Part shown: positions 7,551 through 52,803 of the stretch, one piece after another
Position numbering within the stretch: the first letter of the stretch is position 1
How the letters are laid out: each line of letters begins with the position of its first letter
From: Miltoncostaea oceani
GTDB lineage: Bacteria > Actinomycetota > Thermoleophilia > Miltoncostaeales > Miltoncostaeaceae
Assembly (NCBI RefSeq): GCF_018141545.1
Contig: NZ_CP064357.1
Span: 310,001-374,000 of the forward strand
DNA: 64,000 bases
Reading direction: 5' to 3'
The notes under the pieces: model-generated
The model's database searches: none
Told to the model about the DNA's origin: nothing
The model's input: the letters and a program-made list of their open reading frames with translations, nothing else
Program-made: the position numbers and the translations under genes

Positions 7551-7570
7551 ACAAAAGAAAGGGGGACTGA

Positions 7571-7685: not shown

Positions 7686-7688
7686 GCT
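7683..7688 (+). promoter_or_regulatory. -10 element TAGGCT, leaderless start
   Basis: TAGGCT lies 6 bases before the ATG at 7695 of the lipoprotein gene, placing the transcript start at the A of the ATG. Confidence 0.55.
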
Positions 7689-7694
7689 GCCGCG

Positions 7695-8426: not shown

Positions 8427-8462
8427 GGGTTGACCGCCCTTCCGATGTAAGGCTCGCCCTAG

Positions 8463-8480
8463 TGTCGCCACTTGGCGACA
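8463..8480 (+). terminator. Hairpin after lipoprotein gene
   Basis: A 7-bp stem TGTCGCC / GGCGACA with an ACTT loop lies 36 bases after the stop. There is no T-tract, so termination is possible but not certain. Confidence 0.4.
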
Positions 8481-8685
8481 GACCGGAGAGCCGAAGGATC
8501 AGGAGTCGACCGGGCTTGGCGCGTCAGCGGATCCTGATGTGGCAGCCGGTGACGGGAGCGCGCGCCTGCTGCGACGCCCTCTTGACGGTTGCTTCTCTCC
8601 ACGGTTAGGTTGAGCCGCCCTCACACTCGCCGTGGCGCTTGCACGTCCGGTGCGCGGGACCTCCTCAACCGACACGAGGCCAGCG

Positions 8686-9150: not shown

Positions 9151-9178
9151 TGGGCCGTGTCGAGGATCGGATTCCGCT

Positions 9179-9901
9179 GTGAGCGCGCCGCCGGCACCTG
9201 GGAGCCCCCACCGTCGAGCTAGGCCGTGGGTTGGGCGGTCAGCCGCGACGCTGATCGCGGTGAGCGTCGTCGCGGCGTTGGGGCTGGGGGTGGCACCGAG
9301 CCTCGTCTCGAACGAGAAGGCCGCCGCCCAGAACCCCTCTCTCAATCCCATGGAGAAAGTGGTTGCGGGAGGCTTCTATAAAGCGCGTCTCACCTACGAG
9401 AGGACGACGCCGGTCTACCGGCCGGGGTACAGCAGCTCGAACTTGGACGATGTGCTCGTGAGCTGCCTCACCATGAGTCCTCGTCGTTGGGACGGGAGGA
9501 GCTACAAGGCCAGATGCAGTGTGAGCTGGCTGGCTCGTGAGTATCGGCGCCTGACTCCTACGACGTACGGATACATGCTTCTTCGGCGCTGCAAGCTGGT
9601 GCCAACGCGCTCCTGGGCGCGACGCTGGGGGAGCACCCGGGCGATCATCGTTCCGACCGTTGGGCGCTTTAGCGTCTTGAACGGGACTGCGACCACCAAG
9701 TGCCGGGTTGTTCAGCGGCTCGGCCGGGTCGACCGGTTCGGCCGGTACACGCCGACCATCGCGTCGCAGGCGCCGATTCCCCCGCGGGTGCCCCCCGTTC
9801 GAGCGACCCCCGCCCCGCCGCCCGCCGCCCCGGTGCCCGGCTACGCCGGCCCGCCCCCGTTCCCCCCTCCGCCTCCACCCTCAGCGACGCCTTTGTCGTG
9901 A
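9179..9901 (+). CDS. Secreted protein with Pro-rich tail, 240 aa
   Basis: Begins at a GTG. A basic N-region is followed by a hydrophobic core (SAATLIAVSVVAALGLGVAP) and a likely cleavage site before NEKAAAQNPS. The mature domain is basic with four Cys (LVSCLTM, KARCSV, RRCKLV, TKCRVV) likely paired in two disulfides. The last 50 residues are a Pro/Ala repeat (PPFPPPPPPSA), typical of a wall-spanning or disordered tail. It follows the aromatic-rich secreted protein by 28 bases. Function unknown. Confidence 0.7.
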   Translation: MSAPPAPGSPHRRARPWVGRSAATLIAVSVVAALGLGVAPSLVSNEKAAAQNPSLNPMEKVVAGGFYKARLTYERTTPVYRPGYSSSNLDDVLVSCLTMSPRRWDGRSYKARCSVSWLAREYRRLTPTTYGYMLLRRCKLVPTRSWARRWGSTRAIIVPTVGRFSVLNGTATTKCRVVQRLGRVDRFGRYTPTIASQAPIPPRVPPVRATPAPPPAAPVPGYAGPPPFPPPPPPSATPLS

Positions 9902-13247: not shown

Positions 13248-13649
13248 GTGGAGCTGCGGATCGTCTACTACAGCGCCCCGAGTGGGAACACCCGGCGCTT
13301 TGTCGAGCGCCTCGGCCTGCCGGCTGCTCGCGTCGACGATGACGAGGCCCTGCGCGCCCTCGGCGAGGGCCCGATCTGCCTGGTGACCCCGACCTACAGC
13401 GGCCGCGTCCCGGCTCCGGTGGCCCGCTTCCTGCGGACTCCTGAGCACCGGTCCCGGCTCGCCGGTGTGATCGCCGGGGGGAGCACAAACTTCGGCGCTG
13501 ACTTCGGCCGGGCGGGCAAGCTCGTCTCCTCGGCGTGCGGGGTCCCGCTCTTGCACACCTTCGAGCTCAGCGGCCTGCCCGAGGACCTCGAGATCACCCG
13601 CAGACAACTGGAGAGCATGTGCAAGTCCCCGCACCCATCGACTACCTGA
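13248..13649 (+). CDS. nrdI: NrdI flavodoxin-like protein
   Basis: GTG start; 133 residues. The flavodoxin-like phosphate loop is visible in YYSAPSGNTRRFVERL, the FMN-binding strand in LVTPTYSGRVPAPV, and the NrdI-specific Gly-rich segment in VIAGGSTNFGADFG. NrdI supplies oxidant that builds the manganese-tyrosyl radical in NrdF. Its 3' end overlaps the start of nrdE by about 31 bases, so translation of the two is probably coupled. Confidence 0.92.
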   Translation: MELRIVYYSAPSGNTRRFVERLGLPAARVDDDEALRALGEGPICLVTPTYSGRVPAPVARFLRTPEHRSRLAGVIAGGSTNFGADFGRAGKLVSSACGVPLLHTFELSGLPEDLEITRRQLESMCKSPHPSTT

Positions 13650-17497: not shown

Positions 17498-18492
17498 GCG
17501 ACGAGGCAACCACGCCGGCGCCCGGGGGCGCCCTCGCACCATCGGCGTTGATCGTCCCGAAGCGTGCGATCAACTGGAACGCCCTCGAGGACGAGCTCGA
17601 CAAGATGGTCTGGGAGAAGCTCATCACCCAGTTCTGGGTGGCGACGCGCTTCCCGATCTCCAACGACCTCACCTCCTGGCGCAAGCTGACGCCGGCCGAG
17701 CAGGAGCTCGTGCTCCACGTCTTCGCCGGCCTGACGCTGCTGGACACGATCCAGGGCTCGGTCGGTGCGCCGGCGCTGCTCGCTGATGCGGCCACCCCGC
17801 ACGAGGAAGCGGTGCTCGCGAACATCGCCTTCATGGAGCACGTCCACGCCCAGTCCTACTCTCAGATCTTCCAGACGCTCGCGTCGACCACGGAGATCAA
17901 CGCGGCCTTCCGCTGGGCGGCCGAGAACGAGCGCCTGCAGTTCAAGGCGCGGACGATCCAGGGTCTCTACGCCGACCCGGATCCGCTTCGGCGCAAGGTC
18001 GCCTCGGTGATGCTCGAGTCGTTTCTGTTCTACTCGGGCTTCTTCCTGCCGCTCTGGCTGAACGGCCACGCACGGCTGCCCAACACCGCGGACATCATCA
18101 AGTTCATCATCCGCGATGAGGCGATCCACGGCTACTACATCGGCCACAAGTTCCAGCGCGGCCTGGAGCGTGAGCGAAAGCGGACCCAAGGTGAGATCAA
18201 GGACTTCGCCTACGACCTGCTCGGCGAGCTCTACGACAACGAGGTCCGCTACACCCAGGACCTCTACGACGCCTTCGGGCTGACCGAGGACGTCAAGGTC
18301 TTCCTGCGCTACAACGCCAACAAGGCCCTCATGAACCTCGGCCTCGAGCCGCTGTTCCCGTCCGAGCCGGTGAACCCGATCGTGCTGAGCGGCCTGTCCC
18401 TCGGTGCCGAGACCCACGACTTCTTCTCGACCACCGGGTCGTATGTGGTCGGGCGCTCCGAGCCGACGACCGACGAGGACTGGGACTTCTGA
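17485..18492 (+). CDS. nrdF: Ribonucleotide reductase class Ib small subunit
   Basis: The 335-residue ferritin-like protein has the metal ligands of NrdF: Asp in LTLLDTIQGS, Glu and His in NIAFMEHVHAQSYSQIF (which also holds the radical Tyr), Glu in AAENERLQFKA, and Glu/His in FIIRDEAIHGYYIG. It carries the Mn2 or Fe2 tyrosyl radical cofactor. The ATG at 17485 lies 8 bases after GAAGGA and overlaps the nrdE stop by 13 bases; an in-frame ATG at 17476 is too close to that site. It ends SEPTTDEDWDF, the usual type of tail that docks onto NrdE. Last gene of the operon. Confidence 0.95.
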   Translation: MRSLSDEATTPAPGGALAPSALIVPKRAINWNALEDELDKMVWEKLITQFWVATRFPISNDLTSWRKLTPAEQELVLHVFAGLTLLDTIQGSVGAPALLADAATPHEEAVLANIAFMEHVHAQSYSQIFQTLASTTEINAAFRWAAENERLQFKARTIQGLYADPDPLRRKVASVMLESFLFYSGFFLPLWLNGHARLPNTADIIKFIIRDEAIHGYYIGHKFQRGLERERKRTQGEIKDFAYDLLGELYDNEVRYTQDLYDAFGLTEDVKVFLRYNANKALMNLGLEPLFPSEPVNPIVLSGLSLGAETHDFFSTTGSYVVGRSEPTTDEDWDF

Positions 18493-41660: not shown

Positions 41661-41737
41661 GCTCGAGTAGCTCAGTTGGGAGAGCGCCGCGGTCACATCG
41701 CGGGTCACTTGCGCTGGTTCGAACCCAGCCTCGAGCA
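41661..41737 (+). tRNA. tRNA-Val (CAC), unusual variable loop
   Basis: Acceptor GCTCGAG / CTCGAGC, D-arm GCTC/GAGC, anticodon stem CCGCG/CGCGG with loop GTCACAT (anticodon CAC, U33 present), T-arm GCTGG/CCAGC with TTCGAAC. Between anticodon and T stems are 9 bases instead of 4-5, an apparent insertion. No CCA encoded. Confidence 0.8.
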
Positions 41738-41807
41738 CTAAGACAAAGAAGCTGGAGGATCGCAGTCTCCTCCGTCCACTGTTTCATCCGCAGTAACCGC
41801 ACCACGC

Positions 41808-41880
41808 GGGGGATTAGCTCAGTTGGGAGAGCGCCTGCTTTGCAAGCAGGAGGTCGTCGGTTCGACCCCGTCATCCTCCA
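41808..41880 (+). tRNA. tRNA-Ala (TGC)
   Basis: Acceptor GGGGGAT / ATCCTCC plus A73, anticodon stem CCTGC/GCAGG with loop TTTGCAA. The T-stem has one mismatch (position 50-64). No CCA encoded. Confidence 0.95.
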
Positions 41881-42070
41881 TCATCGTCACTTCACGAAAC
41901 GTCCCGAGTCTCATCGAGTGTGGCCCGCCAGATCGGCGGGCCGGTGGTTCCGGGAGATCAGCCGCCCTGCGCAGACCTTTGGGTCAGGCGCAGCCCGGGC
42001 ACTCCGGGTGGCGAGCACCAAAGTGTCGACCAGCCCATCGTTCAACGATGGGAGCGGGCGGCGCACACCC

Positions 42071-42158
42071 GCCGGTGTGGTGGAATTTGGGAGACACGCC
42101 GGGCTCAGACCCCGGTGCTCTTCGCAAGGGCGTGCAGGTTCGAGACCTGCCACCGGCA
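42071..42158 (+). tRNA. tRNA-Leu (CAG)
   Basis: Type II tRNA with a long variable arm. Acceptor GCCGGTG / CACCGGC, anticodon stem CCGGG/CCCGG with loop CTCAGAC, T-arm GCAGG/CCTGC. Confidence 0.95.
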
Positions 42159-42332
42159 TAGGGGCGAGAGGCCCGCCGCGCCAGACCTGGCCGCGGCACA
42201 GGAGGGAACCAGCAGAGACCGGCCACGCGAGATCCAGGCGTCCTGGTAGATGCTCAGGGGTTAAGGGGCCCAAGCCATGCCTAGTCCTAGAGATCCCGGC
42301 AACCTTATGCTTCCTTCACGCAGGATCGCACA

Positions 42333-43397
42333 GTGCACATCCTCGAAGTTTCGTGGCTGGCTGGTCTGCTCGAAGGAGAGGGCTGGTTCGGAACAACGAC
42401 CCAGCGAGGGAGGCGGACCCCGGCAGTCCAGGTCGAGATGACCGATCGAGATGTGGTGGAGCGCGCGGCCTCACTCATGGGCGTAGGAGTGATGGACCGG
42501 GCCCAGAGGAATCCGCTTCATTCTCAATGCTTCATGGCGCGAGTCTCTGGGAACCGAGCCGCCGACCTTATGACCATCTTGGCAGGCGAGCTTGGTCATC
42601 GCAGATCAGAGAGAATCTCCGGGGTCCTGTCCGACTGGGCTTCCCGTCCGGATTCCACACCGAAGCTCACGGCAACGACGATTGCCGAGATCCTGGAGGC
42701 ACGGTCCTCCTCGAGCTACTCGCAGCGGGCGATGGCAGAGAGGCATGGCGTCAGTCGGCTGACAATCCGTCGAATCCAACGAGAACAGGGTTTCGCGAGG
42801 AACGATGCGCCTACTCGGTCGAGCCTCTTCAGCGTCATCGGGCCGGCGACGTGCCGTGACCGGCAAGTGGCCTGGCTAGCGGGACTCTTAGAAGGAGAGG
42901 GCAGCTTCATGCACCCCGCACCTTCTCGTCCCCGCTCCCCGGTCGTTAGTCTGTCCATGACTGACCAAGATGTGGTCGAACGGGCCGCCTCCATCCTCGG
43001 CGTGTCAGCGTGCCGAACGGCGCCGCGCAGCTCAACAGGTAGAGCCGTGTGGTGCGTACAAGCGCGGGGTAGGCGCGCTGTCGCAACCATGATGGCGGTA
43101 GATCCCTATATGGGCGAGCGCCGATCTCTCAGAATAGAGGAGGTTCTGGCGGCGTGTCCGATGACAGGGCCGCGTCGTAAGGTTTCCAGGTCGCAGGCGG
43201 AGGAGATCGCTGCTCGGATGAGGCGCGGGCACTCAGCTCAGTCTCTCGCCCGCGAGTTCTCCCTGTCGGTGAGGCGGGTGTATGAGCTGGCGCGGCCGGG
43301 TGCGCTGGCCACGGAGCCTGCTCCGATCACGATCGGCCATGAAGGGGACGAGCAGTCCCATACGATGGGGCCGCCCGTCAACCGCCCTTCGTTCTGA
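42333..43397 (+). CDS. Tandem LAGLIDADG homing endonuclease with HTH domains, 354 aa
   Basis: GTG start; a TATGCT hexamer lies about 25 bases upstream. The protein is a tandem duplication: each half has a LAGLIDADG-type motif (WLAGLLEGEGWF at residues 8-19 and WLAGLLEGEGSF at 181-192), a VEMTDRDVVERAASLMGV- or LSMTDQDVVERAASILGV-like element, and a helix-turn-helix (RAMAERHGVSRLTIRRIQRE; AQSLAREFSLSVRRVYELAR). The acidic Glu needed for metal binding is kept in both motifs. Such enzymes cut long DNA sites. It is free-standing in the tRNA array, not inside an intron or intein that I can see. Confidence 0.88.
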   Translation: MHILEVSWLAGLLEGEGWFGTTTQRGRRTPAVQVEMTDRDVVERAASLMGVGVMDRAQRNPLHSQCFMARVSGNRAADLMTILAGELGHRRSERISGVLSDWASRPDSTPKLTATTIAEILEARSSSSYSQRAMAERHGVSRLTIRRIQREQGFARNDAPTRSSLFSVIGPATCRDRQVAWLAGLLEGEGSFMHPAPSRPRSPVVSLSMTDQDVVERAASILGVSACRTAPRSSTGRAVWCVQARGRRAVATMMAVDPYMGERRSLRIEEVLAACPMTGPRRKVSRSQAEEIAARMRRGHSAQSLAREFSLSVRRVYELARPGALATEPAPITIGHEGDEQSHTMGPPVNRPSF

Positions 43398-43469
43398 CAT
43401 GGCAAATCCTCAGCGGGGTCGCGCATGCTTTGGATCGGTGGAGAGGGTTGCAGAAACGTCTAGCAACGA

Positions 43470-43543
43470 GGGGGTGTAGCTCAGCTTGGGAGAGCGTCTG
43501 CATGGCATGCAGAAGGTCGCGGGTTCGAACCCCGCCACTTTCA
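43470..43543 (+). tRNA. tRNA-Ala (GGC)
   Basis: Acceptor GGGGGTG / CACTTTC with several G-U pairs, anticodon stem TCTGC/GCAGA with loop ATGGCAT, T-arm GCGGG/CCCGC. Confidence 0.94.
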
Positions 43544-43822
43544 CTCAGATCCGGCTCACAGCATGGGAGCCGCCAGTTCAGCATCGCGGCGCGCGCCCCG
43601 TCCCCGTGGGGGGTTGCGGAGCGGGCAGGACGCCTGGCCCAACCCGGGCGGCGAATAGGGGCGGCAAGCCCTCGCGCCGTAGTGTCGTCATCTTCTCGTG
43701 CGCGCCCAGTGGCGAAGTCTGCCGCCGGGGCAACCGGCCAGGGCTTCTGACCCGGCTGGGAATAGCGCCTCTTCGTGAGGCACCGCGCCGGCGCTGTCTT
43801 CCTCCCGCTCACCGCGGGACGC

Positions 43823-43895
43823 GCGACCGTAGCTCAGTTGGTAGAGCGTCTGCCTTCCAAGCAGAACGTCGTCGGTTCGAACCCGATCGGTCGCT
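43823..43895 (+). tRNA. tRNA-Gly (TCC)
   Basis: Acceptor GCGACCG / CGGTCGC plus T73, anticodon stem TCTGC/GCAGA with loop CTTCCAA. Confidence 0.95.
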
Positions 43896-43939
43896 TCGTA
43901 ATCCGTCCGTCCACGTCCACTCTCAGACCCAACTCACAT

Positions 43940-44013
43940 GGGGCTATCGTCTAGTTGGTCCAGGACACCACCCTCTCACGGTGGAGACGGGAGTTCGAAC
44001 CTCCCTAGCCCTA
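43940..44013 (+). tRNA. tRNA-Glu (CTC)
   Basis: Acceptor GGGGCTA / TAGCCCT (first pair G-U), anticodon stem CCACC/GGTGG with loop CTCTCAC, T-arm GGGAG/CTCCC. Confidence 0.93.
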
Positions 44014-44093
44014 CTGGTCTACCCCGTGATTCCGCGCGATGGGCGGCATCACTCGAAACTCGAGGGCTGCCTTCCCCTCGGGAGAGGTTCCTT

Positions 44094-44165
44094 GCCGGCT
44101 TAGCTCAGAGGTAGAGCACTTTCCTGGTACGAAAGGGGCCGTCGGTTCGAGTCCGACAGTCGGCT
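44094..44165 (+). tRNA. tRNA-Thr (GGT)
   Basis: Acceptor GCCGGCT / AGTCGGC, anticodon stem CTTTC/GAAAG with loop CTGGTAC, T-arm GTCGG/CCGAC. Confidence 0.95.
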
Positions 44166-44292
44166 TGTTGTGAATCAGGTTCGGTGTGCCGTCTCGCATA
44201 GACACCGACTCAGGGCAGCGCCCTCACTGGCCAAGAGATAGGCGAGCGCCGGACCGGGGTTTACCCGCCGAGGAGCTCGTGGCGGTTCACGA

Positions 44293-44364
44293 TGGGAGAT
44301 GGTCCAGAGGTACGGACACCGGCTGCTGACGCCGGGGACCCTGGTTCGAGCCCAGGTCTCCCAA
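44293..44364 (+). tRNA. tRNA-Gln (CTG) with G33
   Basis: Acceptor TGGGAGA / TCTCCCA plus A73 (U1-A72 as in tRNA-Gln), anticodon stem CCGGC/GCCGG, loop TGCTGAC, T-arm CCTGG/CCAGG. Position 33 is G instead of the nearly universal U, so decoding may be impaired or the tRNA may be degenerate. Confidence 0.85.
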
Positions 44365-44424
44365 TCCTGGCTCGTTCCTCTACGAGCCGTCCCCGAGGTA
44401 TCCGGGCAGGAGCCTGTCCGGCGT

Positions 44425-44497
44425 GCGGCCGTAGCTCAGCTGGTAGAGCGCCAGGTTGCCAACCTGGAGGTCGCGGGTTCGAGTCCCGCCGGCCGCT
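44425..44497 (+). tRNA. tRNA-Gly (GCC)
   Basis: Acceptor GCGGCCG / CGGCCGC plus T73, anticodon stem CCAGG/CCTGG with loop TTGCCAA, T-arm GCGGG/CCCGC. Confidence 0.96.
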
Positions 44498-44622
44498 TCA
44501 TCACTCTGTCCATCGCGCGCGAACCCGTCGGGTCTCATGCCGCAGACGACGGGCGAGAGGCAAGGGAAGTGCATCTTCGGCGTCGTGTCGCGGTGCCGAC
44601 ATCGCATCACCGCAGGACCCTG

Positions 44623-44696
44623 GGAAGGGTAGCTCAGTTGGTTAGAGCGCCGCTCTGATGAGGCGGATGTCGAAGGTTCGAGTCCTTCTCCTTCCA
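44623..44696 (+). tRNA. tRNA-Ile (GAT)
   Basis: Acceptor GGAAGGG / TCCTTCC, anticodon stem CCGCT/GGCGG with loop CTGATGA, discriminator A. Confidence 0.95.
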
Positions 44697-44762
44697 TGCA
44701 CGTGAGAGACCCGCCGAGAGAAAATCTGGGCGGGAGCTAGGTCCGCCCTCTGGGCGGTTCGA

Positions 44763-44835
44763 GGGGCTGTAGCTCAGTCGGGAGAGCGTTCGCTTCGCAT
44801 GCGAAAGGCCGCCGGTTCGATTCCGGCTAGCTCCA
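44763..44835 (+). tRNA. tRNA-Ala (CGC)
   Basis: Acceptor GGGGCTG / TAGCTCC, anticodon stem TTCGC/GCGAA with loop TTCGCAT, T-arm GCCGG/CCGGC. Confidence 0.95.
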
Positions 44836-44908
44836 TGTGTTGTCCAGACACCAGCCCCCCTCGGGATAGTTCTCCGGTTCAGCGCGGCCACCAAGGTCGC
44901 GTCATCGT

Positions 44909-44981
44909 GGTGCGCGTAGCTCAGCGGTAGAGCTCCCGGTTGTGGTCCGGGCGGTCGTGGGTTCGAATCCCATCGTGCACC
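44909..44981 (+). tRNA. tRNA-His (GTG)
   Basis: Acceptor GTGCGCG / CGTGCAC with C73 and the extra G at -1 (44909) typical of tRNA-His; anticodon stem CCCGG/CCGGG with loop TTGTGGT. Confidence 0.95.
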
Positions 44982-45025
44982 CTCCTCCTCAGGTCTCCAT
45001 CCCGGACATGGGCGTCCGGTGCTGT

Positions 45026-45098
45026 GCGGCCGTAGCTCAGCTGGTAGAGCATCCGCTTCCCAAGCGGAGAGTCGTCGGTTCGAGTCCGATCGGCCGCT
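45026..45098 (+). tRNA. tRNA-Gly (CCC)
   Basis: Acceptor GCGGCCG / CGGCCGC, anticodon stem TCCGC/GCGGA with loop TTCCCAA. A CTTCTT microsatellite starts immediately after it. Confidence 0.96.
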
Positions 45099-45137
45099 TC
45101 TTCTTCTTCTTCTTCTCCTCCTCCTCAGCGTTTCCCC

Positions 45138-45177
45138 GCCCCGCGCCGTGGGCTTCTTAAGCCCGGCGGCGCGGGGC
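45138..45177. terminator. Long nested hairpin in tRNA array
   Basis: Outer arms GCCCCGCGCC and GGCGCGGGGC with an inner GGGCTT / AAGCCC pairing, followed by TTCCCT. It may end the transcript from the upstream tRNAs or act in processing. Confidence 0.65.
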
Positions 45178-45208
45178 TTCCCTCTGGTTCGGGCTCGACT
45201 CACTCCCT

Positions 45209-45295
45209 GCGGGGGTGGCGGAATGGTAGACGCGCCGGGTTGAGGGCCTGGTGAGCTTTTTACAGCTCGTGGGGGTCCGAATCCCCCTCCCCGCA
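45209..45295 (+). tRNA. tRNA-Leu (GAG)
   Basis: Type II; acceptor GCGGGGG / TCCCCGC, anticodon stem CCGGG/CCTGG with loop TTGAGGG, T-arm GGGGG/CCCCC. The T-loop is TCCGAAT, with C at position 55 in place of the usual pseudouridine-forming U. Confidence 0.92.
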
Positions 45296-45369
45296 CTGAT
45301 CTCCAGGCCCCACTTCGTGAGCGTCCGACCAAGGCGGTAGGGGAAATCTGCAGCGGCTCATCCGGGGCC

Positions 45370-45375
45370 TAGTCT
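45370..45375 (+). promoter_or_regulatory. -10 element TAGTCT, leaderless start
   Basis: TAGTCT is 6 bases before the ATG at 45382. Confidence 0.55.
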
Positions 45376-45381
45376 GACCCC

Positions 45382-45732
45382 ATGGCCAGAGGTCGCAGTG
45401 TCCGCTCCGCCCTGTCAACGCTCGCTCCGCCTGCGCGGTATCTGGATGACGAGATCCCGACGCTGCCGGCGCAGACCGAAGGCGAGTTCATCGACGCCTA
45501 CGGCTTGGTGACCGCCGCGGGGCTCCATGAGGCGCTCAGCGCCCTCCCGACTGTCGCCTCGACCATCGAGGCCTACCGCGCCGCCGGCGCCAGGACCGAA
45601 GCCGAGCTCTACCGCGGCAGCTACATCGTGATCAGCCAGGAGCTACTTCGCCGGGCGGCCCTCGGGCACCTCGACCAGGACGATCGGACCGCCGCGGCGT
45701 GCGCCGCCGCCCGCCAGATCCTCGGGGAGTAG
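45382..45732 (+). CDS. Hypothetical protein with M-A-R-G start, 116 aa
   Basis: Starts MARGRSVRSALSTLAPPARY, leaderless. Its body is helical (EFIDAYGLVTAAGLHEALSA, ELLRRAALGHLDQDDRTAAA) with no metal or membrane signals. It sits alone between tRNA-Leu and tRNA-Thr on the same strand as the array. The N-terminal MARGR links it to other proteins in the window. Function unknown. Confidence 0.78.
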   Translation: MARGRSVRSALSTLAPPARYLDDEIPTLPAQTEGEFIDAYGLVTAAGLHEALSALPTVASTIEAYRAAGARTEAELYRGSYIVISQELLRRAALGHLDQDDRTAAACAAARQILGE

Positions 45733-45930
45733 GGAACTCGAAGGAGGGCCGGCCCCGCCGGCCTCTCGTGCGTCACGCAGCGGCGCCTTCTTTGAGGGTG
45801 CTGCGTTCGGCTGGGCATGGTTGTGGACGATCCGGTTGATCTGCGGAGTCTGATAGGCACCGCCCGCCAGGTTCGGCTCCTGGGACAACCACTTGAGCAA
45901 TCTCTCCCGCCGTCCCTTCTGATGGCGCGC

Positions 45931-46004
45931 GCCGACGTAGCTCAGACGGCCAGAGCACCCGTCTCGTAAGCGGGAGGCCCGGGGTTCGAATCCCCGCGTC
46001 GGCT
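45931..46004 (+). tRNA. tRNA-Thr (CGT)
   Basis: Acceptor GCCGACG / CGTCGGC plus T73, anticodon stem CCCGT/GCGGG with loop CTCGTAA, T-arm CGGGG/CCCCG. Confidence 0.95.
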
Positions 46005-46260
46005 CCTCCTCCTCCCCCGTCTTCCTCACGACCCTCGACCGCATGATCGCGAGACCGGCAACGGGGCCCAGGGCGGCAAGTGCCGCGCCGCAGGGGCGCT
46101 GACGCGTCCTCGCCGATCGCGGTCTCAGATAGCGCCGGATCCCGAGGAAGGACTGGCCACAAGATGGGCGCGGGCGCTGTCCCGATAGGACAGGCGGTCC
46201 GAGTTCCACCGGGCACGGTGGAGCATGATGAGTCTCCCAGGCCAGGGAGGCTCCCGTCCG

Positions 46261-46291
46261 GCGGGGCCGGCATGGACGATGCCGGCCCCGC
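46261..46291. terminator. Perfect 13-bp hairpin (first of a pair)
   Basis: Arms GCGGGGCCGGCAT and ATGCCGGCCCCGC with a 5-base loop. It is followed 7 bases later by a second 13-bp hairpin. Confidence 0.65.
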
Positions 46292-46298
46292 TCGTCCA

Positions 46299-46331
46299 CC
46301 TCACCCCACCCGCTCCATGGGTGGGGTGAGG
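46299..46331. terminator. Perfect 13-bp hairpin (second of a pair)
   Basis: Arms CCTCACCCCACCC and GGGTGGGGTGAGG with a 7-base loop, followed by TTGTT on the plus strand. Likely terminator for transcription from the upstream tRNAs. Confidence 0.7.
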
Positions 46332-46392
46332 TTGTTCCATCGGTCGGCGAGGCATCCGCGAGGGCGCCCCCGGCCGATCGTGTGTCCACCCT

Positions 46393-46466
46393 GGGGGTGT
46401 AGCTCAGCTGGCTAGAGCACCGGATTGTCAATCCGGAGGTCGCGGGTTCGAGTCCCGTCACTCCCG
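46393..46466 (+). tRNA. tRNA-Asp (GTC)
   Basis: Acceptor GGGGGTG / CACTCCC with G73, anticodon stem CCGGA/TCCGG with loop TTGTCAA. Confidence 0.96.
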
Positions 46467-46523
46467 CTTCATGAAGGGCATGTCAGCGCGGGCCCTCGTC
46501 GAGGGCGCCCGCCGCCGTCGGGG

Positions 46524-46826
46524 CTACTCCCGCGGGCGCTTGAAGGTCCAGCAGGTGCGCACGGGCGTGGAGACACCACCCGTGATGCCGCGCCGCTCGG
46601 CGCCGACCCAGACTTCATCCACCGTCTCGCTGACGAGTTCCCACCCCTCGGCTCCGAGGGCGTTCATGAACTCGACACGGGAGAACTCGGCCTCGACATT
46701 CGCCTCCCGCGCCTCGACAGCGCCGTCTACCGAACGCGCCACCGCCAGCGAGGACGTCCAACGCTGACGGCGCGGATCATACGACCACTCGACGGTCGCC
46801 CTGAGGTACTCCCAGCCTTGACTCAC
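46524..46826 (-). CDS. DUF4177-like small protein, 100 aa
   Basis: GTG start overlapping the stop of the upstream gene by 4 bases. The pattern GWEYLRATVEWSYD ... MNALGAEGWELVSETVDEVW is that of DUF4177-type proteins (aromatic start, then asparagine-leucine-gly-glu-gly-trp-glu-leu). These are small soluble proteins of unknown role. The longer in-frame reading is Pro/Arg-rich and non-coding. Confidence 0.72.
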   Translation of the reverse strand: MSQGWEYLRATVEWSYDPRRQRWTSSLAVARSVDGAVEAREANVEAEFSRVEFMNALGAEGWELVSETVDEVWVGAERRGITGGVSTPVRTCWTFKRPRE

Positions 46827-47008
46827 CGCCGGAACAGGAGGAGGTGGTTCAGGTTGGCCTGGTGCTGTTCGGCCTCCTGCCACGCGGCGTCAACGCCTTG
46901 CTGCCTCCGCAGGCCTTGATCTACGTGGTGTCGATAGGCGGCCTCGCGTTCAGCAAGGTGCCTACTCACTTCACGGTTGATCTGAGACCGGATGTACTCG
47001 TCCTGCAC
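46823..47008 (-). CDS. Small coiled-coil protein, 61 aa
   Basis: GTG start at 47008 with AAGGA upstream. A single highly charged helix (RSQINREVSRHLAEREAAYR, DAAWQEAEQHQANLNHLLLF) with Gln/His/Arg-rich composition, probably a coiled coil. It is translationally coupled to the DUF4177-like gene and lies 61 bases after the gene ending at 47070. Function unknown. Confidence 0.68.
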   Translation of the reverse strand: MQDEYIRSQINREVSRHLAEREAAYRHHVDQGLRRQQGVDAAWQEAEQHQANLNHLLLFRR

Positions 47009-47069
47009 CCGCGCGTCCTTCCCTCGTGCCGGTCCGGGCAGGATACATCGGGACGGCGGGACCTGGCAC

Positions 47070-47663
47070 TCACCGCGAGCGGCCGAGATACCGCTTCCAG
47101 ATGCGGCGCAGCTCGCCAGCCTCGAAGTCCGGTAGGCCTCGGCTGAGCCGTGCGAGGGAGACACCTCGGCTCGAGGTGATGAACCTCGGGCTGACCAGCA
47201 GCTCCCCGCCATCGCGCCAGATCGGCGGTAGCTCCCCGGACGCGTGTGCCCGCTCGTACTCGCTGAGGGAAAGGCCCGTCGCCCAGTAGGCGCGCAACGC
47301 CTCGTCGGTGCCCTTGCTCGAGGCGACGTCCCAGGCGAGCACCGGGTAGGCGAAGGGCTCGGGTCCCTCATAGGAGATCTCGATCGGGGTGGGGTCGTAC
47401 ATCGGGCCGGCCCCGGCCGAGCCACGGACCCAACGCGCGAGGCCCTCCATCTGCGCCGAGCAGAAGAGCCCCTCCAGGCGCCCCTCACGGTCGTCGGGCC
47501 TCAGGGCATCGGCGCGGACGAAGAGCTCATGGGCGGGGCCGTAGTCGGTCGCCTTGTCCGTTCCGCCGGCGCGGTAGACCCGGCGCCGGACCTCGGGGCG
47601 CTCCCCCTCGGGCGTACGGGACAAGGTGGTCGGGGCCGCTCTGATGCCTCGTCCTCTCGCCAT
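47070..47663 (-). CDS. Hypothetical protein with M-A-R-G start, 197 aa
   Basis: I chose the ATG at 47663 (MARGRGIRAAPTTLSRTPEG), 9 bases after a TACGCT -10; an ATG two codons upstream is only 3 bases from the -10. A basic disordered N-terminus precedes an alpha/beta domain (SAGAGPMYDPTPIEISYEGP, AYWATGLSLSEYERAHASGE, LLVSPRFITSSRGVSLARL) and a basic tail RRIWKRYLGRSR. It has one Cys and no membrane span. Family not recognised; it may head the unit that continues with the 61- and 100-residue genes. Confidence 0.75.
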   Translation of the reverse strand: MARGRGIRAAPTTLSRTPEGERPEVRRRVYRAGGTDKATDYGPAHELFVRADALRPDDREGRLEGLFCSAQMEGLARWVRGSAGAGPMYDPTPIEISYEGPEPFAYPVLAWDVASSKGTDEALRAYWATGLSLSEYERAHASGELPPIWRDGGELLVSPRFITSSRGVSLARLSRGLPDFEAGELRRIWKRYLGRSR

Positions 47664-47672
47664 CCTCATCCG

Positions 47673-47678
47673 AGCGTA
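47673..47678 (-). promoter_or_regulatory. -10 element TACGCT (minus strand)
   Basis: TACGCT on the minus strand is 9 bases before the ATG at 47663 (MARG start). Confidence 0.5.
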
Positions 47679-47777
47679 GGGGAGGCCCGCGAGGACGTGA
47701 TGCTCTTCAGACATGGGCCTGGTCCCTTTGGGCCCGAAGTGCCTCGCGGCGCGGACCGTCCGTGCCGGGGGATCCAT

Positions 47778-47852
47778 GCGGCGTTGGTGAAGCGGCCGAA
47801 CACATCGGACTTTCAATCCGACAAATCACGGGTTCGAATCCCGTACGCCGTA
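47778..47852 (+). tRNA. tRNA-Glu (TTC)
   Basis: Acceptor GCGGCGT / ACGCCGT (first pair G-U), D-arm GTG/CAC, anticodon stem TCGGA/TCCGA with loop CTTTCAA, T-arm ACGGG/CCCGT. Variable loop of 6 bases. Confidence 0.92.
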
Positions 47853-47876
47853 TCGAGAGTGGTATCCGGCGCGGGC

Positions 47877-48203
47877 TCAGACGCCGGGGTGTGAGCAGCT
47901 GATGCGCAGGTGGGCACTCGAGCCGGGGATCGCACTCACCTCGACGGCCGCGTCGCCGGCCGGCTCCGGGGAGATCTCGATCGAGAAGCGCATGCCGAGG
48001 GCGCCGCTCGCGCGGCACAGGAGATCGAGGGACGGTGGCGACTGGCCGGCCTCGAGCTCCGTCAGCTCATCGGGGTGGAGGCTGAGGATGTCCGCGAGCT
48101 CGAGCGAGCTGACGCCGGTGCGGATCCGGTGGTCGTGGAGGGACCCGGCCGGGGCGCGGGCGAGGATCAACCGTGCCTCGCGGGTGTCGTCGGTCGTGGG
48201 CAT
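47877..48203 (-). CDS. XRE-type helix-turn-helix regulator, 108 aa
   Basis: A five-helix Cro/CI-like HTH lies at about residues 22-70: GSLHDHRIRTGVSSLELADI, then LHPDELTELEAGQSPPSLD and LLCRASGALG. A small C-terminal beta part follows (RFSIEISPEPAGDAAVEVSA). It should be a DNA-binding repressor, possibly of its own region. ATG at 48203 is 8 bases after TACTGT, so leaderless. Confidence 0.85.
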   Translation of the reverse strand: MPTTDDTREARLILARAPAGSLHDHRIRTGVSSLELADILSLHPDELTELEAGQSPPSLDLLCRASGALGMRFSIEISPEPAGDAAVEVSAIPGSSAHLRISCSHPGV

Positions 48204-48211
48204 CGCCGGCG

Positions 48212-48217
48212 ACAGTA
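48212..48217 (-). promoter_or_regulatory. -10 element TACTGT (minus strand)
   Basis: On the minus strand TACTGT is 8 bases before the ATG at 48203. Confidence 0.5.
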
Positions 48218-48302
48218 GGCGCCCGGGCGATGCCTCTGCGGCACTTGCGCCTCCGGACGAGGCCGTCCGCGCGGAACGGGGATGCGCACGAGGGCAGGCG
48301 GC

Positions 48303-48308
48303 TACTGT
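48303..48308 (+). promoter_or_regulatory. -10 element TACTGT, leaderless start
   Basis: TACTGT is 6 bases before an ATG at 48315 that opens a 23-codon ORF. It is the same hexamer that serves the divergent XRE gene. Confidence 0.5.
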
Positions 48309-48314
48309 CAGTCC

Positions 48315-48386
48315 ATGGGCTCATCCATCACGCGTTCTCACACCCCGGCCTTCGTCCGCGGCAAGAGGGTCATCGAGCTGCCCTGA
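48315..48386 (+). CDS. Candidate leaderless small protein, 23 aa
   Basis: MGSSITRSHTPAFVRGKRVI followed by ELP and a TGA. It is placed exactly at leaderless spacing from a TACTGT -10 and lies in the gap between two minus-strand genes, so it has no competing frame. It is basic in the middle. Support is positional only; there is no ribosome binding site and no homologue I recognise. Confidence 0.45.
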   Translation: MGSSITRSHTPAFVRGKRVIELP

Positions 48387-48408
48387 TCCGCGTGAGGACT
48401 CGCGGGGT

Positions 48409-49074
48409 TCAGGAGGGGGTCGCAGGCTCCTTCTCCGAGGAGGCGGCCGCTCGCTGGCGCCGGACATGGCGGCGCTCTCGGACCCCGATCACGGCGCCGA
48501 CTGCCGCCATGACGGCGAACGCGACGCCGAAGGCGACCCACGGCTTGTCGGCGAAGGCCTTGCCGGCGAAGTAGCCGATGAGGGCCGCCTGGGTCGACCA
48601 GAGAACGGCACCCACGCTGTCGAACAGGAGGAAGCGCCGGTAGGACATCTGCCCGGCGCCGCAGGAGAGGTTGATGGCGATCCGGATCCCCGGCAGGAAG
48701 CGGCCGGCGAGGACGAGCGCCGCCCCTTGGCGGGCGACCATCCTCTCCGCGGCCTCGATGCGCCCGGCCCCGGCGACCTTCACGACGCCACGTCGGATCG
48801 GTCCCCGTCCGCGACGGCCGGTCCAGTAGGCGGTCGAGTCGCCGATCACGGCTCCGACCGCGCCGGCGGCGATCACGAGGGGCAGGCTGAGGGTGCCGTC
48901 GGCCGCGAGGACCGCGGCGGCCACGATCGCGGTCTCACCCGGGAACAGCGGGAAGACCCCATCTCCAGCGACCACGAGCAGGACTGCCCAGTAGCCGAAG
49001 CGCGCGGCGGCGTCGGCGAGCTCGCCGAACGATCCGCCGACCGCCGCGGTGAGACTCCCGATCAGGCCGCTCAC
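48409..49074 (-). CDS. DedA family membrane protein, 221 aa
   Basis: Conserved DedA/SNARE-associated features: VVAGDGVFPLFPGETAIVAA (the re-entrant Phe-Pro-Gly-Glu motif), GAVIGDSTAYWTGRRGRG (Gly-Asp), and GRFLPGIRIAINLSCGAGQM (Arg-Phe-x-Pro-Gly). DedA proteins flip lipids such as undecaprenyl phosphate or phosphatidylethanolamine across the membrane. GTG start overlaps the stop of the upstream CorC-like gene by 4 bases, so they are co-translated. Confidence 0.92.
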   Translation of the reverse strand: MSGLIGSLTAAVGGSFGELADAAARFGYWAVLLVVAGDGVFPLFPGETAIVAAAVLAADGTLSLPLVIAAGAVGAVIGDSTAYWTGRRGRGPIRRGVVKVAGAGRIEAAERMVARQGAALVLAGRFLPGIRIAINLSCGAGQMSYRRFLLFDSVGAVLWSTQAALIGYFAGKAFADKPWVAFGVAFAVMAAVGAVIGVRERRHVRRQRAAASSEKEPATPS

Positions 49075-50366
49075 TCCGCGCTCACCGGACGGGCTGTGCA
49101 GCGGACCCGGACGATGCGCGTCCCCCGGACCTCCTCGACCCGAAGCGTCCACTCGCCGGCTTCCACCACGTCATCGACCTGGGCGGGGCGCCCGAGCCGG
49201 CTGAAGATGAGGCCGCCGATGCTGGTCACGCCCTCCTCAGCCAGATGGAGGCCGTGCTCCTCCAGGTCCTCGAGGGAGACGTGGCCGCGCGTGATGATGT
49301 CTCCGTCCTCGGCGATCACCATGTCGGGCTCGGGGTCGCGCTCGTCGTGGATCTCCCCGACGATCTCCTCGAGGACGTCCTCGAGGGAGACGACGCCGGC
49401 GAGCTCGCCGTACTCGTCAAGGACGACCGCGAGGGAGGCGCGCGCCTGGCGCATCCCGGCGAGGAGGATGTCCAGGGGCTGGGACTCGGGCACCAGGTGC
49501 ACGGGCCCGGCGAGCTCACCGACGGGCGTCTCCGGCGTCTCGACGTACCCCCGGCTGAGGGCGCTCAGGTGGACCACTCCTGTCGGCTGGTTCGCGCCGG
49601 AGACCACGGGGAAGCGGCTGTGCCGGCTCCCGAGGACCGAGAGCAGGGCCTCACGGGCCGTCTGCCCGGCAGGGATGGTGGTGACCGACGGCGCGGGGCT
49701 CATGACCTGGCGGGCTGAGGTCTCGTGGAGCTCGAGGACACCTTCGATCATCCCGGCCTCCTCGGGGTCGAGGGTGCCGCCGCGTTCGCTGTCGGCGATC
49801 AGGCGCTGGAAGTCCTCGGTCGTCAGGGCCATCTCGTGCTCGGAGGCGGGTGGGATCCCGAGGAGCCGGACGAGCCTCACCCCTGCGCCGTTGAGCACCG
49901 CGATCACCGGCGAGAAGACCAGGCGGAACGCCTCCAGCGGGAGGGCCAGGCGTGTCGCGGTGGCCTCCGCCTTCTGGATCGCGATCGTCTTCGGGGCGAG
50001 CTCACCGACGACCACATGCAGGACGGTGATCACCGCGAAGGCGATCGCCCCCGCCGCGAAGACCCCTGCGGCCTCGCCCGCGCCGGCCCGCTCGAGGACC
50101 GGCTCCAGCACGCTCGCGACGGCGGGCTTGCCGAGCCAGCCGAGCCCGAGGGCGGTGACGGTGATGCCGAGCTGGCAGGCGGCGAGGTAGCGGTCGATCT
50201 CGTGGGACTGACGGGTCGCGAGGGCCGCGGAGCGGGAACCTCCGGCGGCCATCGCCTCGAGGCGGACCACCCGCGCGCGGGCGAGGGCGAACTCGGCGGC
50301 GACGAAGAAGCCCGTCGCCAGGATCAATACGACGACGGCCAGCAGGCCGACGATGGTGCCACTCAT
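49071..50366 (-). CDS. CNNM/CorC (HlyC-like) transporter with CBS domains, 431 aa
   Basis: Order: N-terminal DUF21/CNNM membrane domain (TIVGLLAVVVLILATGFFVA, ELAPKTIAIQKAEATAT), a CBS pair (MSPAPSVTTIPAGQTAREAL, VVLDEYGELAGVVSLEDVLE), and a C-terminal CorC_HlyC domain (ERDPEPDMVIAEDGDIITRG). The family exports Mg2+ or other divalent cations. A ribosome binding site AAGGAG lies 10 bases before the ATG. First gene of a pair with the DedA protein. Confidence 0.93.
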   Translation of the reverse strand: MSGTIVGLLAVVVLILATGFFVAAEFALARARVVRLEAMAAGGSRSAALATRQSHEIDRYLAACQLGITVTALGLGWLGKPAVASVLEPVLERAGAGEAAGVFAAGAIAFAVITVLHVVVGELAPKTIAIQKAEATATRLALPLEAFRLVFSPVIAVLNGAGVRLVRLLGIPPASEHEMALTTEDFQRLIADSERGGTLDPEEAGMIEGVLELHETSARQVMSPAPSVTTIPAGQTAREALLSVLGSRHSRFPVVSGANQPTGVVHLSALSRGYVETPETPVGELAGPVHLVPESQPLDILLAGMRQARASLAVVLDEYGELAGVVSLEDVLEEIVGEIHDERDPEPDMVIAEDGDIITRGHVSLEDLEEHGLHLAEEGVTSIGGLIFSRLGRPAQVDDVVEAGEWTLRVEEVRGTRIVRVRCTARPVSAE

Positions 50367-50490
50367 GTGCGGTGGACTCCTTGGTAGGACCACCGGCGGT
50401 CAAGGGGGCCGGGCGGTCTCAGATGACGGGCCCGAACGTAGGCGCTCCCGGCCTCATTTCACCGGAAACTCACCGTTCGCGGGTCGGCCC

Positions 50491-50721
50491 TCAGGGCTCG
50501 ATTCGCCCGCTGGGCGCGCATCCGGGCAGATAGCCGGTCCACATGCCGCCCTCATCGAGCGCGATGTCGACGTCGAAGTCGTCGTACTCGCCGAGCGGGA
50601 TGATCTGGGTGACGGTGCCGGGACCGAAGAGGCTGCGGACGCGATCACCGATGACCAGCTGGTCGACGCGGTGAAACGGCTCATCGACGACGCACGGTGC
50701 GGTGGTGCTGGGGTCGCTCAT
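50491..50721 (-). CDS. Hypothetical acidic protein, 76 aa
   Basis: ATG at 50721 with AGGAGT 9 bases upstream. The sequence DQLVIGDRVRSLFGPGTVTQ and YDDFDVDIALDEGG look like a small SH3-type beta barrel, often found in regulators that bind nucleic acid or peptide. Acidic, soluble. Function unknown. Confidence 0.68.
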   Translation of the reverse strand: MSDPSTTAPCVVDEPFHRVDQLVIGDRVRSLFGPGTVTQIIPLGEYDDFDVDIALDEGGMWTGYLPGCAPSGRIEP

Positions 50722-50754
50722 GCGCGGGTGACTCCTGTGGTTGTGAGTGCGGGG

Positions 50755-51000
50755 TCAGAAGGGTGGGTCAGGGTCGTCCTCTGCGGTCGCCGCGCTCGCC
50801 AGTGCGAGACCGATCGGACAGTGGCACAGCTCCTCGGCCGGAACAGGCTGAGAGCAGCACTCGCCGCTTGGCAGGAGCCGACCGCAGCACTGCGCGACGA
50901 TCATCCTTCCCTCGTTGCAGCAGTCCGGGCAACGCGGCCTGGGGGTCCGGGGGGAGATGGCGGGAGCCTGTCCTTGGGCCTGTGAGTGTCCGCGCGCCAT
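50755..51000 (-). CDS. Cys-rich protein with M-A-R-G start, 81 aa
   Basis: Starts MARGHSQAQGQAPAISPRTP, then RCPDCCNEGRMIVAQCCGRL and SGECCSQPV, EELCHC: nine Cys and a His arranged like two zinc ribbons. The MARG start is shared with other proteins in this window. Likely a small zinc-binding protein; partner unknown. Confidence 0.72.
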   Translation of the reverse strand: MARGHSQAQGQAPAISPRTPRPRCPDCCNEGRMIVAQCCGRLLPSGECCSQPVPAEELCHCPIGLALASAATAEDDPDPPF

Positions 51001-51041
51001 TGGTCAGAGGGTGCCACGGCCTCGCCAGGGAGAGGCCGTTC

Positions 51042-51497
51042 TCACCGGGTCGGTTCCTCGAGTATCAGCAGGTCGAGGTCCTTGGCGCCGACGATCTCCG
51101 GGTTGGCTTTCGCCCACGCCCGGGCCTGGGCGCGCAGCCGCTCCTGGTCGTCGGTCATGTAGATGACGAGCACGCCGCTTCGCAGGTCGCTGTCGTCGTA
51201 GAGCTTGGTGCGAAGGAGCTGGTCGATCCACTGCCATGCCGAGTCCTCGAACTCGCCGTTCTCGTCCATCAGGTCCTCGACCGAGAGGATGTCCAGACGG
51301 ACGCCGCTCTGGCCGTAGGTCGAGAAGGCGATCCGGCTGATGGGCGCCTCGAGATCATCGGAGTCCGAGAGCCCGAGCGTCCCCTCGAGCGCCTGCGCGG
51401 CGGCGGTCACCTGCTCACCGGCACCCTCGGCGCGCACGGCCTGGAGCAGCGCCCGCGTGCCGCCGGCCAGGTCGTTCATCCCGTTCGTCTCGCTCAT
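51042..51497 (-). CDS. Hypothetical protein, 151 aa
   Basis: ATG at 51497 (MSETNGMNDLAGGTRALLQA) has an AGGAG ribosome binding site 8 bases upstream; a TATGTT -10 lies about 37 bases further upstream. It has a helical N-terminus and an alpha/beta C-terminus (VLVIYMTDDQERLRAQARAW, DLDLLILEEPTR). Soluble and acidic. Family not recognised. Confidence 0.7.
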   Translation of the reverse strand: MSETNGMNDLAGGTRALLQAVRAEGAGEQVTAAAQALEGTLGLSDSDDLEAPISRIAFSTYGQSGVRLDILSVEDLMDENGEFEDSAWQWIDQLLRTKLYDDSDLRSGVLVIYMTDDQERLRAQARAWAKANPEIVGAKDLDLLILEEPTR

Positions 51498-51659
51498 CTG
51501 GAGGCTCCTGGTCGTTGAGAGGACAGCACCTCCAACATAGGACGCTCATCTGTCAGCGACTCCCATCGCCGAGCCTCCCCGGGCATCGGGCGCCGTATGG
51601 TGATGAGGCCGAACCGCGTCGCGGTCCGGCTGACAGGCACCGGCAGAGGGGAACCGAGG

Positions 51660-51809
51660 ATGTCCGACGATCAGACCCATGCGCCCGGGCAGGCAATCGA
51701 GGGCCTCGAGGCGGAGGCGATGGGGAGTCTCATCGCGGCCTTCGACCTCGCCGACAGGCACGGCCTCGACATCGACGACCTGATCGACCGGGTGCGCCAA
51801 GGACGCTGA
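51660..51809 (+). CDS. Small acidic helical protein, 49 aa
   Basis: ATG at 51660 (MSDDQTHAPGQAIEGLEAEA) has GAGG-type sequence shortly upstream; a longer frame starts upstream but reads as Arg-rich. The product is a single amphipathic acidic helix (SLIAAFDLADRHGLDIDDLI). It lies between convergent transcription of the ZIP gene and divergent of the 151-aa gene. Function unknown. Confidence 0.55.
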   Translation: MSDDQTHAPGQAIEGLEAEAMGSLIAAFDLADRHGLDIDDLIDRVRQGR

Positions 51810-51816
51810 ACGGGGG

Positions 51817-52578
51817 CTAGCCGGCGATCAGCTGGTTCAGGACGAGCATCAGGATGAACCCGAGCATGCAGCTGAGGGTTACGACCCGCTCACTGCCACC
51901 GCGGACACCGGCGGGGATCAGCTCGTCGACGCACACGTAGAGCATTGCGCCGGCGGCGAAGGCGAGGCTGAGCGGGAGAAGCCCCGAAGCGACCCCGACG
52001 ATCGCAAAGGCGGCGAAGGCCGCGGGGATCTCGATCAGACCGCTCGATGCGGCGACGGCGAAGATCCGCCGTCGCGGCATCCGGGATGCCAGGAAGGGGA
52101 TCGCCACGGAGAACCCCTCCGGCACGTTGTGGGCCATGATCGCGATCGCGAGCGGGAGACCGAGCTCGGTCCCGCCGACGGCGAAGGCCACACCGACCGC
52201 CATCCCCTCGGGGATGTTGTGGAGCGAGAGCGCGCCGAAGACCAGCCAACCCCGTCGGCGCGCGTCAGGAGTCCCGTCCTCGGGACCCCGGGGTGGGTGG
52301 AGGTGAGGGACCAGGCGATCGAGTCCGAGCATCAGCGCGACGCCGAGCACGAGCCCGGTGATCACCTCGATCAGTGCCCCCTGCTCGAGAGCCGGGTTCA
52401 GGAGCCCGAACGACAGGGCGGCAAGCATGACCCCGGCCGCGAAGCCGAGCCCTCCGTCCAGGAGCCGATCGCCCGGTGAGCGCCACACGTAGATGCCGAG
52501 CGCGCCGATCACCGTTCCGAGGCCGGCCAGCGTCATCCAGAGGGCGAACAGCGGTTCCACGCCGATGAGGATGCGCAA
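51817..52578 (-). CDS. ZIP family metal transporter, 253 aa
   Basis: TTG start with GAGGAGT about 7 bases upstream. Eight transmembrane helices fit the family, with a His-rich loop (VPHLHPPRGP), the metal-site motifs ALSLHNIPEGMAVGVAFAVG (His-Asn-x2-Pro-Glu-Gly) and MAHNVPEGFSVAIP (His-Asn-x2-Pro-Glu). The family moves Zn2+ or Fe2+ into the cytoplasm. tRNA-Gln lies 50 bases upstream on the other strand. Confidence 0.92.
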   Translation of the reverse strand: MRILIGVEPLFALWMTLAGLGTVIGALGIYVWRSPGDRLLDGGLGFAAGVMLAALSFGLLNPALEQGALIEVITGLVLGVALMLGLDRLVPHLHPPRGPEDGTPDARRRGWLVFGALSLHNIPEGMAVGVAFAVGGTELGLPLAIAIMAHNVPEGFSVAIPFLASRMPRRRIFAVAASSGLIEIPAAFAAFAIVGVASGLLPLSLAFAAGAMLYVCVDELIPAGVRGGSERVVTLSCMLGFILMLVLNQLIAG

Positions 52579-52628
52579 TCAGCGACTCCTCGGATGTCAT
52601 CCTCGCATCGGCCGAGCGACACCACGAT

Positions 52629-52700
52629 GGGTGGTGGCCAAATGGTAAGGCGCCGGATTTTGGTCCCGGTGATTGCAGGTTCGAATCCTGCCCACCCAAC
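52629..52700 (+). tRNA. tRNA-Gln (TTG)
   Basis: Acceptor TGGGTGG / CCACCCA plus A73, anticodon stem CCGGA/CCCGG (31-39 is an A-C mismatch) with loop TTTTGGT, T-arm GCAGG/CCTGC. Confidence 0.93.
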
Positions 52701-52730
52701 TCACCTCACCGTATGGTGATCACACACGCG

Positions 52731-52803
52731 CCGTCTTAGCTCAGCTGGTAGAGCAGTCGCCTTGTAAGCGACAGGTCGCCGGTTCGACCCCGGCAGACGG
52801 CTT
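52731..52803 (+). tRNA. tRNA-Thr (TGT)
   Basis: Acceptor GCCGTCT / AGACGGC plus T73, anticodon stem GTCGC/GCGAC with loop CTTGTAA. Only 30 bases after tRNA-Gln. Confidence 0.96.

Follow-up and report, generated by a model that had tools for sequence, protein, structure and literature searches.

A dispersed second set of tRNA genes on a secondary replicon of Miltoncostaea oceani

The closest described relatives of the system treated here are arrays of transfer RNA (tRNA) genes on large actinobacterial plasmids. The Mycolicibacterium plasmid pCBMA213_1 carries 32 tRNAs in one compact region; their isotypes are redundant to the chromosome and, apart from Met CAT, each anticodon occurs once (Morgado and Vicente, 2018, PMC5966550). 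On two Arthrobacter plasmids (NZ_CP104273 and NZ_CP099467) we recovered 37 and 34 tRNAs, likewise in compact arrays with one gene per anticodon, the repeats being Met and, once, Cys; practically no anticodon is thus repeated on any of the three plasmids. A tRNA array unit, in the definition of Tran (2016) as given in PMC5966550, comprises at least 20 tRNA genes at a density of at least 2 per kb. Here, an array of 19 tRNA genes from Miltoncostaea oceani was analyzed. It lies in a stretch of 64,000 nucleotides (the window), which corresponds to bases 310001-374000 of the 815,643 bp secondary replicon C2 (NZ_CP064357.1); the genome further consists of contigs C1 (3,679,875 bp) and C3 (46,598 bp).

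Compared with these plasmids, the window array shows the same traits: its isotypes are redundant with the chromosome, it resides on an extrachromosomal replicon and an endonuclease gene lies inside it, which is of the LAGLIDADG type on C2 and of the HNH type on pCBMA213_1. VWA and AAA ATPase genes are found nearby on both replicons, and the one-of-each design is common to them. A sequence-only reading of the window had regarded the spacing of the genes as distinctive, which did not hold, as the median spacer of 117 nucleotides is close to the 128 nucleotides of pCBMA213_1. The gene number of an array unit is narrowly missed, with 19 genes in the window and 11 conventional genes in the next cluster of C2; the density is 3.3 tRNA genes per kb over the first 16 window genes and 1.7 per kb over all 19. 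In contrast to the single compact region of pCBMA213_1, whose tRNAs are ~74% identical to those of C2, the C2 tRNA genes occupy six places, and lysine, which has conventional tRNAs on pCBMA213_1 and adjacent complete Lys-TTT and Lys-CTT genes on the Arthrobacter plasmids, is present on C2 as permuted halves. The C2 set is therefore a giant version of the non-redundant arrays described before from large plasmids of actinobacteria; what sets it apart from them is its spread over a replicon of 816 kb, together with the Lys locus.

All 19 genes of the window array lie on the plus strand at 41661-52802 and are supported by both ARAGORN and Rfam RF00005 (45-76 bits, gathering score 29). This bears out the isotype counts of the sequence-only reading (three Gly, three Thr, three Ala, two Glu, two Gln, two Leu and one each of Val, Ile, His and Asp), and all 19 anticodons are distinct. 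The first 16 genes fall within 41661-46467 and the remaining three begin near 47777, 52628 and 52730. As had been noted from the letters, none of the 19 encodes CCA, which is likewise absent from most chromosomal tRNA genes, and the spacers measure 29-386 nucleotides with the exception of 634, 1309 and 4773 nucleotides and a gap of 1311 nucleotides at the endonuclease gene. ARAGORN made a twentieth call, Ile-GAT at 45819-45892, which had no Rfam support and was rejected as spurious. The features of the array are, in window coordinates and with all tRNA genes called by ARAGORN and Rfam:

41661..41737, plus strand, tRNA-Val(CAC), Rfam 54.9 bits
41808..41880, plus strand, tRNA-Ala(TGC), 91% identical to its chromosomal cognate
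42071..42158, plus strand, tRNA-Leu(CAG)
42333..43397, plus strand, LAGLIDADG_3 and helix-turn-helix protein of homing-endonuclease type in the array gap, 354 amino acids, E 2e-6
43470..43543, plus strand, tRNA-Ala(GGC)
43823..43895, plus strand, tRNA-Gly(TCC)
43940..44013, plus strand, tRNA-Glu(CTC)
44094..44165, plus strand, tRNA-Thr(GGT)
44293..44364, plus strand, tRNA-Gln(CTG), with G33
44425..44497, plus strand, tRNA-Gly(GCC), Rfam 76.5 bits
44623..44696, plus strand, tRNA-Ile(GAT)
44763..44835, plus strand, tRNA-Ala(CGC)
44910..44981, plus strand, tRNA-His(GTG), 91% identical to its chromosomal cognate
45026..45098, plus strand, tRNA-Gly(CCC)
45209..45295, plus strand, tRNA-Leu(GAG), Rfam 45.4 bits
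45931..46004, plus strand, tRNA-Thr(CGT)
46393..46466, plus strand, tRNA-Asp(GTC), 93% identical to its chromosomal cognate
47778..47852, plus strand, tRNA-Glu(TTC)
52628..52699, plus strand, tRNA-Gln(TTG)
52730..52802, plus strand, tRNA-Thr(TGT)

The array is the largest of the six tRNA places on C2 and makes up half of a dispersed and nearly complete second set (19 of 38 conventional tRNA genes), in which acceptor types are never repeated and nearly all are matched on the chromosome. The conventional genes serve 19 amino acids as well as selenocysteine, with a gene for each of the two Met types. If 35 genes were drawn randomly from 43 types, all would be distinct with a probability of ~1e-9. 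The isotypes reported as missing are indeed absent from the window, but Met, Arg, Ser, Phe, Pro, Asn, Cys, Trp and Tyr were located elsewhere on C2; for Lys, the absence of a conventional gene stands and C2 carries the permuted halves outside the window. The other tRNA places and translation genes of C2, in C2 coordinates, are:

375924-377561, glutamyl-tRNA synthetase (GluRS)
386629-387924, short threonyl-tRNA synthetase (ThrRS) that lacks the N-terminal editing part; a longer ThrRS is encoded on the chromosome
455.9 kb, transfer-messenger RNA (tmRNA); a separate tmRNA is on C1
~489 kb, two tRNA-Ser
496-502 kb, five tRNA-Arg, three Pro, Met, Asn and Val (the next-largest cluster, 11 conventional genes)
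602579-606254, tRNA-SeC, adjacent to selB-like and selA-like genes that were assigned by sequence
~671 kb, tRNA-Cys, Trp, Tyr and Phe
~760 kb, initiator-like tRNA-Met
766770-767441, RF2-like protein of 223 amino acids with a GGQ motif, apparently without the N-terminal domain

The short ThrRS gene lies near the window array, which carries all three Thr tRNAs.

To what extent the set duplicates that of the host was read from C1, which was sampled around its tRNAs (760 kb fetched). The chromosome has ~45 tRNA genes; each anticodon is represented once, except for three Met genes. According to the sequence-only reading, the array would simply be the normal chromosomal set if the chromosome lacked these species; all 19 window anticodons are present on C1, and the array sits in an accessory region, as had been supposed, namely on a replicon apart from the 3.68-Mb chromosome. 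A complete genome of the same genus has 47 tRNAs, a count exceeded by none of 60 relatives. Since the C1 set is complete and no relative exceeds 47 tRNAs, the C2 set is additional. Relative to the chromosomal tRNAs fetched, Arg-GCG and SeC are the only new anticodons. The tRNA-Arg(GCG) gene is located at C2:498447-498520, and on the chromosome ACG reads the same codons; the Arg anticodon GCG is rare in bacteria. Mean identity of the C2 tRNAs to their chromosomal cognates is 80%, compared with 74-76% to tRNAs of the other plasmids, so that the set was not copied recently from the chromosome, nor does it stand close to those plasmids.

Nearly all C2 tRNAs have a 7-nucleotide anticodon loop, U33, a purine at position 37 and intact stems, and their discriminator base mostly equals that of the chromosomal cognate. 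Identity elements are kept, with G3-U70 in all three Ala and G-1/C73 in His. Within the window, two genes depart from the canonical form of anticodon loop, stems and discriminator base: Gln-CTG carries G33 in place of U and is possibly impaired, and several wobble pairs occur in the acceptor stem of Ala-GGC. Chance does not account for the array. By simple wobble rules, and with Lys counted, 97.4% of the codons of C2 are readable by C2 tRNAs; the codons left unread include TCC, TTG, TCT and GTA.

Taken together, these results make it probable that C2, as a chromid-like megaplasmid, carries a second and non-redundant set of tRNA genes with the array as its largest part, and that this set forms an auxiliary decoding pool. 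The genes would be transcribed from C2, their precursors trimmed by RNase P and RNase Z of the host and CCA added by the host CCA-adding enzyme. Charging would mostly be carried out by host synthetases, while GluRS and the short ThrRS of C2 may serve its Glu and Thr tRNAs. Such an extra pool could sustain the translation of C2 genes during shortage or damage of the host tRNAs, instead of patching a few rare codons. Several observations weigh against this proposal. Three C2 genes look impaired, namely Gln-CTG, the tRNA-like gene at C2:501913 and the initiator Met, which has T37 and two of three G:C anticodon-stem pairs. Class Ia and class IIb synthetases were searched for and are absent from C2, so that the set cannot work alone. 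The pool is seen at the level of genes, and its benefit is unproven because, as cited in PMC5966550, deletion of an array in a carrier organism had no apparent phenotype (Puerto-Galan and Vioque, 2012). C2 offers a testable case in the unsettled matter of why complete sets of tRNA genes reside on mobile elements.

The gene content of C2 bears on where the set came from. Genes were called on C2 with a simple purpose-made model, and the family scans list top families only. C2 encodes a DnaE with an intein, a DnaG-DnaB fusion, an NAD-dependent ligase, GyrA, GyrB, RecA and two RecD2 helicases, as well as sigma-70 factors. Similar to the Arthrobacter plasmids, which bear the housekeeping duplicates secY, secG and dut, it has SecA, TatC and DnaK. 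In the window, NrdE, the large subunit of ribonucleotide reductase, contains two Hint/intein-like insertions (13535-17497) and is followed by NrdF (17476-18492). Plasmid-type genes for a ParA-like protein and a VirB4-like conjugation ATPase were found, and on this content C2 would best be described as a chromid-like megaplasmid. Probing for sister replicons with the DnaG-DnaB protein gave no matches.

That the tRNAs arrived with a phage or other foreign ancestor of C2 and were retained by inertia is unlikely. The phage-like genes for replication and nucleotide metabolism (the DnaG-DnaB fusion and the intein-bearing DnaE and NrdEF), a CobT-like VWA protein and the homing endonuclease inside the array would fit such a relic. 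However, the tRNAs have kept their structures and identity bases well at ~80% identity to the host cognates, which is too diverged for a recent copy, and among the families listed for the subset of C2 proteins scanned no phage capsid, terminase or portal was matched.

Even less likely is a compensation of codon usage, in which the array would boost tRNAs for codons that are frequent on C2 and rare on the chromosome. Codons ending in A or T are somewhat more common on C2 (per thousand, GAT 13.0 versus 6.0, GCA 9.8 versus 4.1 and TCA 5.0 versus 1.4 on the chromosome). A comparison of codon use with the anticodons, as proposed in the sequence-only reading, gave no fit: the C2 set repeats the anticodons of the host one for one, mainly those of common codons and not of codons enriched on C2, it lacks Leu-TAA, Leu-TAG, Leu-CAA and Val-TAC, and it adds no more than the two new anticodons given above. 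The one-of-each design itself speaks against rare-codon compensation. Together with the replisome genes, sigma factors, two synthetases, RF-like protein and tmRNA of C2, it argues for a general hedge against host tRNA loss rather than for specific rare codons.

It is highly improbable that C2 stems from another organism, as a contaminating contig or a small chromosome with its ordinary tRNA set. Such an origin might be suspected from its GC content (70.1% compared with 74.8% in the 760 kb of C1) and a recorded contamination value of 3.87%. However, C2 lacks class Ia and IIb synthetases, the families shown for its proteins include no ribosomal protein, and no rRNA motif was found on it (weak evidence, as none was found in the sampled C1 pieces either). 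In addition, the VirB4-like and ParA-like proteins point to a plasmid, and the C2 tRNAs are closer to those of the present host than to those of other plasmids.

Lys is the only one of the 20 standard amino acids for which C2 has no conventional tRNA gene. At C2:501564-501872, on the minus strand, two units were found, each consisting of the 3' half, a spacer and the 5' half of a tRNA-Lys (CTT and TTT). Their layout is TAATCGGA..TGCCCCCA, a spacer of 14 or 12 nucleotides and then GGGGGTA..GCCGACT[C/T]T. Joined 5' to 3', the halves yield canonical tRNA-Lys(CTT) and tRNA-Lys(TTT) with discriminator A, which share a G27-A43 mismatch with chromosomal Lys. Six substitutions and one insertion in the D loop separate the two units, and every one of these changes is tolerant or compensatory. 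In simulations, six random substitutions left all features intact in ~0.2% of runs, and this rarity suggests that the halves are under constraint, without telling for which function. If the middle halves were read as one Lys-CTT gene with a 133-nucleotide insert, the outer two halves would have no explanation. Directly upstream of each unit, on the same strand, lies a degenerate tRNA-like gene (C2:501913-501986 and 501652-501718), the former resembling the Lys halves but without U33.

Circularly permuted tRNA genes are known from algae and an archaeon, where the 3' half also comes first and joining gives a canonical tRNA (Soma, 2014, PMC3978253; Chan, 2011, PMC3218864). The C2 locus differs from these in being bacterial and in having no visible bulge-helix-bulge junction; duplex energies of the flanks lay within 0.7 standard deviations of shuffled sequences. 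RtcB ligase is absent, by which RtcB-mediated joining is rejected, and RF00028 gave no match to a permuted group I intron at the locus at E values up to 10. As flank pairing, RtcB and a group I intron were all not found, a joining mechanism is not in sight. It is conceivable, but rather doubtful, that the two units are functional circularly permuted tRNA genes. The ends of their transcripts would be connected within the anticodon loop, between positions 35 and 36, through some ligating or self-splicing activity; opening by RNase P and RNase Z would follow, and the two genes would complete a set for 21 amino acids. If they work, they would be the first in bacteria as far as we found in the literature, and would imply a new tRNA-joining step.

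The remaining weight is shared by two possible alternatives. The units may be broken remnants of tandem copies, for which the adjacent Lys-Lys pairs of the Arthrobacter plasmids provide a precedent. Alternatively, they may belong to a Y-RNA-like molecule, as the bacterial Y RNA YrlA (RF02553) has the same order of T arm, loop-closed acceptor stem and D arm. Unlike YrlA, the C2 locus has no closing stem beyond chance and retains the anticodon halves. The Y RNA interpretation is further disfavored by the scores of the units with RF02553 (38.0 and 30.9 bits, gathering score 69), which an ordinary tandem tRNA pair approaches with ~29 bits, and by the failure to find a Ro60/TROVE protein in the genome (best match 11.5 bits, cut-off 23). 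In its favor, a similarly arranged phage contig adjoins a Ro60 gene. This contig (L110, IMGVR_UViG_3300043395_002573) was the single match of a relaxed search for the permuted-Lys pattern among IMG/VR viral contigs; the strict search gave none, as did a search of a genome contig collection. It encodes a portal and a terminase and harbors, at 7528-9439, a Ro60/TROVE gene beside a permuted, Y RNA-like mimic of tRNA-Lys, which is a setting of Y RNAs.

A covariance model (R1) was also run over 396 genomes of the phylum and 399 of the class, and the 29 best phylum loci were read. Most of them overlap ordinary tRNA gene pairs, while five without a tRNA call look like Y RNAs. The scan of the class added one more hit, of 58 bits (G472). 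Permuted tRNA mimics of this Y RNA-like kind, not called by ARAGORN, occur twice each, ~240 nucleotides apart, in L125, L129 and L139 and once each in L127 and L130, and the letters of their anticodon loops are mostly not Lys-like. On C2 itself, outside the calls of ARAGORN and Rfam, a possible degenerate tRNA-like hairpin set with the loop ATTTATA was observed at 390980-391055.

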